Shown here one piece after another: positions 48,034-50,436 of a stretch of DNA of 64,000 bases; within the stretch, counting starts at the first letter, position 1; every line of letters starts with the position of its first letter. Source of the DNA: Sphingomonadaceae bacterium (GTDB lineage: Bacteria; Pseudomonadota; Alphaproteobacteria; Sphingomonadales; Sphingomonadaceae); contig JAKFUU010000005.1 of assembly GCA_021732525.1 (NCBI GenBank), positions 1-64,000 of the forward strand. The letters are read 5' to 3'. Made by a program: the position numbers and the translations under genes. Below the pieces are notes generated by a model. The model made no database searches, was not told the DNA's origin, and saw nothing but the letters and a program-made list of their open reading frames with translations.

Positions 48034-48049
48034 GCTGCCCTTATGCATC

Positions 48050-48064
48050 TTGACGCAACGTCAA
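48050..48064. promoter_or_regulatory. MerR/TipA-type operator
   Basis: TTGACG-CAA-CGTCAA, a perfect 6-3-6 inverted repeat. On the minus strand it reads TTGACGTTGCGTCAA, the form bound by TipA/SkgA-like MerR regulators. It is 17 bp upstream of the MerR start, so autoregulation is likely. It also lies at the head of the divergent ABC gene. Confidence 0.75.
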
Positions 48065-48150
48065 CATCAAGCCTTTTTGTAAGTGGTGGACTTGGCGCCC
48101 TATTCGCGGCATGCCATAGCCATGAATATTCACCAGCCGAGATATTCCGA

Positions 48151-49077
48151 TTGACCATATTGCCGCTGATCTTGCGCCGCTTGCTCACCGCGATTCCCAC
48201 TTTGCTGGGGATTATCATATTGTCTTTCCTGCTGATGCGATTTGCGCCCGGCGGACCGTTTGATGGTGAGCGGCCATTGGCCCCCGAAACCCGCGCGGCG
48301 TTGGAGGCGGCCTATGGTCTTAATAAGGGCTTGGGAACGCAGATATGGCTCTATCTCAGCCGGCTGGCGCAGGGCGATTTTGGTCCCAGCCTGATCTACC
48401 GCGATTTCACCGTAACCGAATTGATTGCGCAGAGCCTACCTATATCCTTGCTGATCGGCGGGTTGGCGCTTTTGCTGGCAAGTGTGCTGGGGATAAGCGC
48501 GGGCCTGTTCGCCGCTGCGCGCGCCGGGATGTGGCAGGATCAAGCCTTGATGCTGACCGCAACCCTGCTGACCGCGTTGCCGACATTTGTTACCGGGCCA
48601 TTGCTCGCGCTGATCTTCGGATTATGGCTCGGCTGGCTGCCGGTATCGGGGCAAGGTGGCGGCGGCGCATGGCTCCTCCTGCCGGTCATCGCCTTGGCGC
48701 TTCCGGTGGCGGGCGCGGTTGCCAAACTTGCCCGCGCGGGGCTAGCGGAGATATTGGGGCAGGATCATATCCGCGCCGCGCGCGCGCGCGGGGTCGCGCC
48801 GCTCACCATCCTGCGCCGCCATGCGCTGCGCCCCGCGCTGGTTCCGGTGGCCAGCTATCTGGGGCCGGCGGCGGCGGGATTGCTAACCGGCGCGGTGGTA
48901 ATCGAAACGGTGTTTGGCCTGCCCGGATTGGGCCGCTATTTTGTCCAAGGCGCGCTCAACCGTGATTATCCGCTCGTTCTCGGCGTGGTGACGCTTTACG
49001 CCGCGCTCATCATCCTCTTCAACCTGATCGCCGACCTGATTTACGGCTGGCTCGATCCGCGGATGCGGGATGTGTGA
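48151..49077 (+). CDS. ABC transporter permease, OppB/DppB/YejB type
   Basis: First inner-membrane subunit of a peptide/nickel-class importer. About 308 residues; six helices, with IPTLLGIIILSFLLMRFAPG at the N-terminus and the EAA loop (GLAEILGQDHIRAARARGVA) before the last helices. VIETVFGLPGLGRYFVQGAL is typical of OppB. Start uncertain: TTG 48151 or TTG 48160 give a family-like N-terminus; the frame opens at 48043, but those first residues are not OppB-like. Its partner permease is 565 bp downstream, separated by a GxxExxY cassette. Confidence 0.88.
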   Translation: MTILPLILRRLLTAIPTLLGIIILSFLLMRFAPGGPFDGERPLAPETRAALEAAYGLNKGLGTQIWLYLSRLAQGDFGPSLIYRDFTVTELIAQSLPISLLIGGLALLLASVLGISAGLFAAARAGMWQDQALMLTATLLTALPTFVTGPLLALIFGLWLGWLPVSGQGGGGAWLLLPVIALALPVAGAVAKLARAGLAEILGQDHIRAARARGVAPLTILRRHALRPALVPVASYLGPAAAGLLTGAVVIETVFGLPGLGRYFVQGALNRDYPLVLGVVTLYAALIILFNLIADLIYGWLDPRMRDV

Positions 49078-49099
49078 TTATAGCGGGCAGTGCGCATTA

Positions 49100-49571
49100 T
49101 TTCATGCAAAGATAAGAAGAAAAAGAAGGTAATAAGCTTGGTGTTATCGGAAGAAATCGAACGATTGGCCAGCACCGCCATTGATTGCGGGTTGAAAATC
49201 CACATTGAACTCGGCCCCGGATTGATGGAATCGGTCTATGAAGCGGTTCTTGAGAACCGCTTGAGAAAAATAAATATGAAGGTAGACCGGCAAAAGCCAA
49301 TCAAGATTATGGTTGATGGCCTTAGTTTGCCGGACGCCTTTCGCTGCGACTTGCTGATTGAGGACAAGCTACTCATTGAATTGAAATCGGTAACCATGCT
49401 TGCAAATCTGCATCAAATGCAGACGCTCACTTATCTGCGTCTTATGAATTTGCCATTGGGCCTACTGCTCAACTTTGGCAGGGAAACCTTCAAACAGGGT
49501 ATCAAACGGATCGTCAATAATCATGCCGCCTAAACTTTTGATCTTCTTTATCTTCTTATCTTTGCGTGAAA
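49100..49571. mobile_element. Putative GxxExxY cassette bounded by inverted repeats
   Basis: The 29-bp arms 49100-49128 and 49543-49571 are inverted copies that agree at 27 of 29 positions (left arm begins TTTCATGCAAAGATAAGAAG; the complement of the right begins TTTCACGCAAAGATAAGAAG). They enclose a single GxxExxY gene. The unit splits an otherwise compact ABC operon. No transposase is present, so it is either non-autonomous or not mobile. The classification is inference. Confidence 0.6.
49141..49533 (+). CDS. GxxExxY protein (PDDEXK_3 nuclease-superfamily fold)
   Basis: About 130 residues. The name-giving motif is GPGLMESVYEAVLE (G-x-x-E-x-x-Y). The later AFRCDLLIEDKLLIELKSV provides an Asp and an E-x-K, matching the PD-(D/E)xK core, and the C-terminus has the usual PLGLLLNFG. 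The biochemical role of the family is not established. GTG 49141 is preferred; the frame opens at GTG 49090 within the left inverted repeat, which gives a lysine-rich leader unlike the family. Codon use is more AT-rich than in the neighbouring permeases. It is flanked by 29-bp inverted repeats. Confidence 0.87.
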   Translation: MLSEEIERLASTAIDCGLKIHIELGPGLMESVYEAVLENRLRKINMKVDRQKPIKIMVDGLSLPDAFRCDLLIEDKLLIELKSVTMLANLHQMQTLTYLRLMNLPLGLLLNFGRETFKQGIKRIVNNHAA

Positions 49572-49641
49572 TTTTTGGCGCTACCCTCCGCATATTGCTA
49601 TAGCGTCTTTGCGTGAACCAAATTTACGACCCGAAAAGCTG

Positions 49642-50436
49642 ATGCGTATTCCCCTCATCATCACCGCGATTATCGCTTTCGCTGCATTTTTGTTGCCTCT
49701 CGTCCTGCCATGGGGGCATGCGGCGATTGATTGGGATAGCGTCAATGCAGGCCTTTTTCACGAGGGGCATATTCTGGGCACCGACGATCTGGGACGCGAC
49801 CGGCTCGCCCGGCTGCTGGTGGGCACGCGCACGACGATTTTCGTCGCGCTGGCGGCGGCGATGGTGGCGCTGATTATCGGCACCATCTGGGGCGCGGCCG
49901 CTGGCTGGATCGGGGGACGAACCGATGAGATGATGATGCGGATTGTCGACGGGCTTTATGCGCTGCCCTTCATGTTCGTCGTCATTTTGCTGATGGTGGT
50001 TTTTGGCCGGTCGATCTTGCTCGTCTTTATCGGCATTGGCATGGTCGAATGGCTGACGATGGCGCGGGTGGTGCGCGGGCAAGTTTTGGCGCTCAAAAAC
50101 CGGCCCTTTGTCTTGGCTGCTGAAGCTGCCGGATCGCCGGGGTATGCCATATTGCTGCGCCATATATTACCCAATGTCGCGGGCGTTGCCGCCGCCTATC
50201 TGATGCTCACGGTGCCGCAAGTGGTGATGGTGGAGAGTTTTCTTTCCTTTCTCGGACTGGGCGTGCAGGAACCACTGACCTCGCTCGGTATTTTGGTGAA
50301 TGAGGGCGCCGATGAGATGGATTTGATTCCCGCCGCCCTGCTGCTACCCGGCGGCATGCTGGTGACCATTATCATCTGCCTGACGCTCGCAGGGGAGAAA
50401 TATCGCGACCGGATGGCGGCGGAGGCGCGCGCGTGA
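49642..50436 (+). CDS. ABC transporter permease, OppC/DppC/YejE type
   Basis: Second permease of the importer, 264 residues. HILGTDDLGRDRLARLLVGT is the OppC-type start of the membrane domain; LALKNRPFVLAAEAAGSPGY is its EAA loop, and TVPQVVMVESFLSFLGLGVQ follows. ATG 49642 is preferred over the earlier GTG-type opening at 49609, which overlaps a copy of the cassette tip. Its TGA overlaps the GTG start of the fused ATPase by 4 bases. Confidence 0.9.
   Translation: MRIPLIITAIIAFAAFLLPLVLPWGHAAIDWDSVNAGLFHEGHILGTDDLGRDRLARLLVGTRTTIFVALAAAMVALIIGTIWGAAAGWIGGRTDEMMMRIVDGLYALPFMFVVILLMVVFGRSILLVFIGIGMVEWLTMARVVRGQVLALKNRPFVLAAEAAGSPGYAILLRHILPNVAGVAAAYLMLTVPQVVMVESFLSFLGLGVQEPLTSLGILVNEGADEMDLIPAALLLPGGMLVTIIICLTLAGEKYRDRMAAEARA

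Follow-up and report, generated by a model that had tools for sequence, protein, structure and literature searches.

The 472-bp unit at positions 49100-49571 of the window (the whole 64,000-nt stretch of Sphingomonadaceae DNA that was analysed) is on balance probably a copy of a widespread selfish cassette that acts at the DNA level, in which a GxxExxY gene lies between arms built of ~7-mer units that its protein is predicted to recognise. This reading is favoured because it fits the clean loss of the unit, its inversion in place, the absence of a target duplication, the concerted change of its two arms and the strict maintenance of its protein.

The unit between oppB and oppC

The unit sits between oppB-like and oppC-like permease genes, and its gene is intact. 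The left arm has a 29-nt core of purine-rich short tandem units (49100-49128, forward strand), TTTCATGCAAAGATAAGAAGAAAAAGAAG, and the right arm holds the inverted copy (49543-49571, reverse strand), whose reverse complement is TTTCACGCAAAGATAAGAAGATAAAGAAG. The cores are identical at 27 of 29 positions, counted by eye, and a repeat search extends the arms to 49085-49139 and 49532-49586 (55 nt, 78% match). The unit has an inverted-repeat (IR) score of 26, and the highest score among 303 control window pairs in loci of the genus is 13.5. Folded as single-stranded DNA, the unit forms the hairpin that its arms predict (z = -4.7), and 100 shuffled sequences all folded less well. The ORF list and the Pfam and NCBIfam scans show only the GxxExxY gene between the arms and no transposase gene. 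The sequence-only reading had described the 27/29 arms, the gene between oppB and oppC and the missing transposase, and all three are confirmed.

The GxxExxY/PDDEXK_3 gene (49138-49533, forward strand) encodes 131 aa from a TTG at 49138, with the GTG at 49141 as another possible start. The TTG was chosen as most likely because a probable Shine-Dalgarno sequence, AAGAAGG, lies at 49123-49129 on the forward strand, at the inner end of the left arm. The oppB-like ORF (48043-49077, forward strand) probably has its true start near 48154, and its TGA stop is 22 nt upstream of the left arm core. The oppC-like gene (49642-50436, forward strand) is read from the ATG at 49642, although its ORF opens at a TTG at 49609. 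Both flanking genes are BPD_transp_1 permeases with OppB (upstream) and OppC (downstream) as the best NCBIfam models, and both score below the equivalog cut-offs of these models. The operon is otherwise tight, as had been noted from the sequence, with a 4-bp overlap (50433-50436) between the OppC and ATPase reading frames. The gap between OppB and OppC also contains, once, the outer end that is usual in the family, TTTGGTTCACGCAAAGAC (49605-49622, reverse strand; 0 mismatches to the pattern). It is the sole match at up to 3 mismatches in the 64 kb, where 0.89 is expected by chance, and is possibly what is left of another unit at this junction.

The window protein scores 119.1 bits against PF13366 (cut-off 22), its only Pfam match, and 122.3 bits against the GxxExxY model TIGR04256 (cut-off 35). 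D71, E81 and K83 are invariant in an alignment of 22 of the 33 sequences at hand (the window protein and 21 of the 32 from the scan of named genomes). The AlphaFold (AF2) model has a mean pLDDT of 94.3, and its best fold match in the PDB is a weak one to Cas4 SSO0001 (E 4.4e-3, probability 0.99-1.00; none at E<=1e-3), followed by matches that include lambda-exonuclease types. Judging from the model, the protein is a minimal Cas4/lambda-exonuclease-like PD-(D/E)XK fold with intact D, E and K residues. A sequence search of solved structures with the family profile gave no match up to E 1. PADLOC has no match for the window protein and one weak partial match for a Bacteroides protein, and PHROGs has none for either.

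The dN/dS ratio is 0.035-0.23 in 7 of 11 protein pairs, the remaining four having saturated dS, and by these ratios the GxxExxY gene is under purifying selection. The gene occurs in 19 of 45 genomes of the genus, the window's own included, and in 57 of 299 genomes of the phylum. The genome of the window has four GxxExxY genes, all four with inverted arms. A search at E 1e-5 with the window protein matched none of 50,697 phage records and 3 of 72,556 plasmid records, and the gene settings of all three plasmid records look chromosomal.

Arms, their motif and the protein they accompany

Arms were scored at GxxExxY loci in general by a fixed scan of 200 nt on each side of the gene, with an IR score of at least 14 taken as strong. 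The genus set comprises all 43 loci of the genus search (L001-L043), two of which contain a broken gene. Strong inverted arms are present at 39 of them and at 0 of 303 controls elsewhere in the same loci, and 158 of 1806 pairings with swapped left and right partners reach a score of 14. The four loci without strong arms are L007, L008, L025 and L039. The further set of 65 loci, with a few near-duplicates, was drawn from three plasmid records, the scan of named genomes (32 loci) and the 299 genomes of the phylum (30 loci, part of the places found there). Here 54 loci have strong arms and 11 do not, against 6 of 1036 controls, the highest of which scores 16.5. The expectation that GxxExxY genes share such arms is thus borne out for most loci of both sets. 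Going by record title, taxa with passing loci are, among others, Bacteroides, Chloroflexota, Verrucomicrobiales, Lentisphaerae, Phycisphaeraceae, Latescibacterota and Gammaproteobacteria. A locus from Cyanobacteria with a broken gene is at the limit (IR score 14.0), and the single Chlorobi locus (L071) fails the scan. At another GxxExxY locus, L126, two arm-like halves make up a 72-nt palindrome, and the scan takes this stretch as the best arm pair.

A typical arm has a T-rich outer end followed by tandem C-R-C-R-R-A-K units with a period of 8, 9 or 10 nt, as in the Bacteroides example TTCACCACAGAGGACGCAGAGGACACGGAG. The strict two-unit motif has 14 matches at up to 2 mismatches in the window where 14.2 are expected, so the window's own arms are off-consensus, a purine-rich variant. 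In several units (L015, L013 and L063) the reading frame continues across the right arm, which thereby codes for the protein tail (..SSRLRVNQ).

The arms vary from copy to copy, yet left and right match inside each copy. When copies at the same site in different species are compared, an arm scores a mean of 22.95 with its own partner and 16.2 with the swapped partner. The own partner is better in 35 of 45 same-site pairs, equal in 8 and worse in 2 (Wilcoxon p = 3e-7, the pairs being non-independent). A cruder identity count agrees (33 of 40) and is biased upward, the arms having been picked by match. Since arms are more alike to their own partner than to their orthologues, left and right appear to change in concert; arms merely ageing since insertion would not be closer to each other than to orthologues. 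Either the match is needed, or strand switching at the palindrome rewrites one arm from the other.

The size and plan of the unit equal those of the 23S rRNA intervening sequence, described for Coxiella in PMC4990558 as 428 nt with 28-bp inverted termini, one ORF and cleavage by RNase III. The GxxExxY arms could likewise pair in the operon transcript, with RNase III cutting the stem, the unit leaving the mRNA harmlessly and host machinery doing the moving. The placement of the units agrees with this. Among 89 units examined with a crude longest-ORF caller, 81 have both neighbours, and these are mostly co-directional: 60 are (+,+), 9 (+,-), 8 (-,+) and 4 (-,-). Of the 72 units that our filter retained as having close neighbours, 62 follow a + gene, and 47 of these 62 start -6 to +15 nt from its stop codon. 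However, the gene-less copies described below (18 units with short flanks) are not tightly placed behind stop codons, so it is the gene-bearing unit that seems to depend on host transcription. The mismatches in 91 arm pairs also speak against upkeep of an RNA stem, since those that would pair in sense RNA (G.U, U.G) number 76 and those that would not (A.C, C.A) number 97, with no excess of the former (p = 0.13). Selection on an RNA stem is therefore not the preferred explanation, and a unit whose arms matter as RNA is unlikely. Rfam gave nothing near gathering scores on 16 loci, and no match on L003, the locus holding the window unit.

The cassette plan is that of these S23 intervening sequences (PF05635), the closest known kind; the element of PMC4990558 is alike in size, inverted termini, one small ORF, sporadic distribution and conserved insertion sites. 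That paper also notes a former proposal that the ORF is required for mobility. The differences lie in the protein (PD-(D/E)XK fold, unrelated to 23S_rRNA_IVP), the arm motif, the setting (junctions of protein genes instead of rRNA) and the RNA, where the GxxExxY units give no sign of selection for pairing. The window unit has no PF05635 gene and lies between permease genes rather than in rRNA.

PF05635 itself, the rRNA intervening-sequence protein, was found in 51 of the 299 genomes of the phylum, and the same query had no match in the 45 genomes of the genus, in a run whose control gave none either. Strong arms are present at 18 of 30 PF05635 loci (L238-L267), and in a smaller run at 16 of 26 against 1 of 202 controls. 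No rRNA was found when it was looked for in the 30 loci, and of the 18 PF05635 units that have both neighbours 12 are co-directional with them. Here too the arms are inverted and consist of ~7-nt units in tandem, but the motifs are different ones (AGTAGGC, GTGAGTA, GTGAGGA and GGCGAAT). CRCRRAK occurs at least twice in both arms at 71 of 108 GxxExxY loci and 0 of 30 PF05635 loci, whereas the PF05635 motif set, chosen after inspection, is found at 17 of 30 PF05635 and 3 of 108 GxxExxY loci. Some genomes have both families, each with its own motif (G204 with L115 and L265, G256 with L103 and L247). By these contrasts, which hold even in the same genomes, the arm motif goes with the protein and not with the host. 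Within GxxExxY, arm and protein likeness are correlated between units at different sites (r = 0.40; 37 units, 622 pairs; 0 of 2000 permutations as high), which again links arm type to protein type. This correlation could also be mere co-inheritance, which would count against a cassette whose protein reads its arms.

Full, decayed and empty junctions and gene-less copies

By flank similarity, the 43 units of the genus fall into about 11 recurrent junctions and a few single ones. For oppB|oppC, matches were found in 17 of 45 genomes at 19 places, and after removal of the paralogues L060-L062 the junctions of 16 orthologues were read by eye. Three are full (the window, G009 and G030), one has lost the gene, 11 are empty and one is unclear. 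The gene-deleted junction (G023) measures 172 nt and retains the two arms but nothing of the gene except its last codons. G018 has a 46-nt gap with no arms visible. In the 11 empty junctions the stop and start codons overlap or are a few bases apart. The window and G009 proteins are sisters in the GxxExxY tree (99/95) and the G030 protein belongs to another lineage, so this junction has probably been used twice. On the oppB tree the full sites are scattered and need four changes. A close comparison is that of G008 (empty) with G009 (full), where the two flanks are 98.9% and 97.6% identical. The G008 junction, GGGTGAGGCCC, is the sequence that results when both ends of the G009 insert are joined at the TGA, and it has a GTG start where other close empty sites have ATG. 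It may be an excision scar, an ancestral GTG being the alternative.

The fabD|fabG junction has the same states. A strong fabG match was found in 42 of 45 genomes, and of 30 junctions fetched two are full, 27 are clean-empty, with one base between stop and start, and one was unreadable by script. Three further full junctions (the window's genome, G030 and G033) are known from the first genus search, and Sphingomonas parapaucimobilis uses this junction too. At a third junction, site G, 42 of 45 genomes matched and 30 were fetched: four are full, three are relics, two hold other inserts, three are unreadable and 18 are clean-empty, with flanks at most 40 nt apart. The relics are an internal deletion in G006 that keeps the first 21 codons (by eye), gene-less arms in G011 and a single arm in the window's genome. 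G010 and G017 are another close pair that includes an empty relative, with a right flank 96% identical. The two other inserts at site G are L230 (G020, 516 bp) and L231 (G003, 629 bp), and this junction may be a general hot spot.

Comparison of the same junctions thus shows that arms and gene form one inserted unit, which can be present, internally deleted, reduced to an arm or cleanly absent. The inserted cassette proposed by the sequence-only reading is upheld by empty orthologous junctions at all three sites. The outcomes that it had named as refuting did not occur: there are relatives without the insert, and its arms have kin at other GxxExxY loci. The same reading had proposed to look for any target duplication at the junction. 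This finds no support, as direct repeats at the unit ends equal the control across 90 units. TGA repeats at oppB|oppC and a ~12-nt likeness at fabD|fabG (L002) are suggestive only, and may reflect selection on stop codons and ribosome sites.

These states are also what would be expected if the protein cut the empty junction and recombination copied the unit in, giving a cycle of gain, decay and clean loss. In keeping with such homing, the same site is occupied in scattered species (the four changes on the oppB tree), full, decayed and empty states coexist at one site (oppB|oppC, site G), and full sites have close empty relatives (G008 with G009, G010 with G017). Homing endonuclease genes are likewise small, encode a nuclease fold and occur at conserved sites that can be empty, full or decayed, and I-Ssp6803I is a homing endonuclease of the PD-(D/E)XK type. 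However, homing genes need no matching arms, and they would not account for arm motifs common to phyla whose junctions differ, or for gene-less copies with cognate arms at other sites. The GxxExxY units, with inverted unit arms and differing junctions, also lie in no intron or intein. A homing-like cycle is therefore an unlikely explanation.

At site K, the G006 unit (L033) is inverted in place relative to L025 and L042: the gene aligns forward and the flanks in reverse, with break points in or at the arms. Moves to new sites are rare among sphingomonads, since close proteins mostly have their site in common. Many protein pairs from Chloroflexota are 80-92% identical without similarity of their flanks as DNA, and other pairs share flanks. 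L081 and L091, for instance, have proteins 92% identical and no flank likeness as DNA or among the flanking ORFs, and the arms of L081 have an IR score of only 12.5. Nine pairs were compared by their flanking ORFs, including six Chloroflexota pairs picked for absent DNA similarity. Likeness was absent in these six and in L037/L038, and present in L081/L083 and, in reverse, in L025/L033. By these comparisons, some close copies in Chloroflexota are at unrelated sites. The overall pattern could in part be vertical inheritance and loss, as close sphingomonad copies and several from Chloroflexota share junctions.

Arms also occur without the gene. The two-unit motif is found in 40 of 45 genomes of the genus, with 663 matches in all against about 61 for the reversed pattern, overlapping units being counted more than once, and many of the matches listed form +/- pairs some 100 bp apart. 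When 14 gene-less pairs were compared with all strong arms of the genus, six (four in G006, two in G007) were nearest to L030 of G007, scoring 25-31 of 36 points, with the next best at 16-22. Others are nearest to L033, L034 or L042, and L033 is in G006, as is one of these copies. Two gene-less copies, L168 and L169, have another repeat inside (ACCCTGAACTTGTTTCAGGGTC type), by eye a case of nested repeats. Separately, L174, L175, L177 and G001:C67:18417 are recurring tight palindromes in the opposite order, a right-type and then a left-type end about 40 bp apart; they may represent a different small element, or places where the ends of two adjacent units meet.

The gene-less copies would also be explained if the arms belonged to a miniature element of the ordinary kind, mobilised by a transposase that escaped notice, with GxxExxY as captured cargo, and arm motifs do occur without the gene, even in genomes without a GxxExxY match. 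G009, on the other side, has the gene and no exact motif. But gene-bearing genomes have more motifs (median 18 for 19 genomes, against 2.5 for the 26 without the gene; one-sided p = 0.0019), although the gene's own arms add to the former. Such arms flank most GxxExxY genes of distant phyla, and the motifs at PF05635 genes are different ones, even in the same genomes (G204, G256). A passenger role for the gene is accordingly improbable. Least probable of all is that GxxExxY is a useful repair or defence nuclease of the host with arms as a regulatory or termination structure: the low dN/dS would agree, but the gene is in a minority of genomes of the genus and phylum, many junctions are clean-empty, the window protein has no PADLOC or PHROGs match and arms occur without the gene.

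A putative DNA-level mechanism and its relatives

In the favoured reading of a DNA-level cassette, the GxxExxY protein would recognise the 7-mer units of its own arms, act on the hairpin or cruciform that these form as DNA and nick at the arm ends. Rejoining would give clean excision or inversion, and a rare insertion elsewhere would create a new site and duplicate no target sequence. Copies that have these arms but lack the gene would be derivatives that may be moved in trans. The sequence-only reading had offered a non-autonomous cassette as one option for the gene-bearing unit; the term fits the gene-less copies better. Units may persist just after co-directional stop codons because the host operon transcribes them there and neither neighbour is harmed.

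Several results count against this cassette. Strong arms are lacking at the 4 and 11 loci given above, genomes without the gene still hold some arm motifs, and the absence of a target duplication leaves no classical transposition footprint. According to PMC4990558, Coxiella apparently does not produce its S23 protein in vivo. A separate point concerns the nuclease fold. The PF05635 protein is a four-helix bundle, and to our knowledge PF05635 proteins are not nucleases. Since they have the same layout, the mobility step need not be PD-(D/E)XK activity.

The unit also resembles other mobile DNA. Like insertion sequences and MITEs, the GxxExxY units have inverted ends, short gene-less derivatives with cognate ends and scattered sites. 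Unlike insertion sequences, they have no transposase gene and no target-site duplication above control, and their end sequence varies between copies while being matched within each copy. In REP/RAYT systems, a Y1 transposase gene lies near inverted short repeats that form single hairpins, and gene-less repeats occur elsewhere. The GxxExxY units are similar in having one gene near inverted short repeats and gene-less repeats elsewhere, and differ in their PD-(D/E)XK protein and in tandem 7-mers instead of single hairpins. A search of literature available without subscription found no paper describing a GxxExxY cassette.

It is possible, with the chances somewhat against it, that a single undescribed lifestyle of mobile DNA has two branches, the GxxExxY cassettes and those of PF05635. 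A small protein, with a nuclease fold or a helical bundle, would read its own tandem-unit arms and, with the unit in the form of a DNA hairpin or cruciform, move or excise it and leave no target duplication. Strand switching would keep the arms alike, insertion would be just behind the stop codons of host operons, and the rRNA intervening sequences would be the first-noticed members.

If the cassette reading is true, many genes of the GxxExxY family, which occurs in several phyla and has no assigned function, would share one explanation with their gene-less relics and many tandem 7-mer palindromes. Two families could then be compared to test how S23 intervening sequences move. There would be practical interest, too, in a one-gene unit of ~470 bp able to pass cleanly into and out of tight operon junctions.
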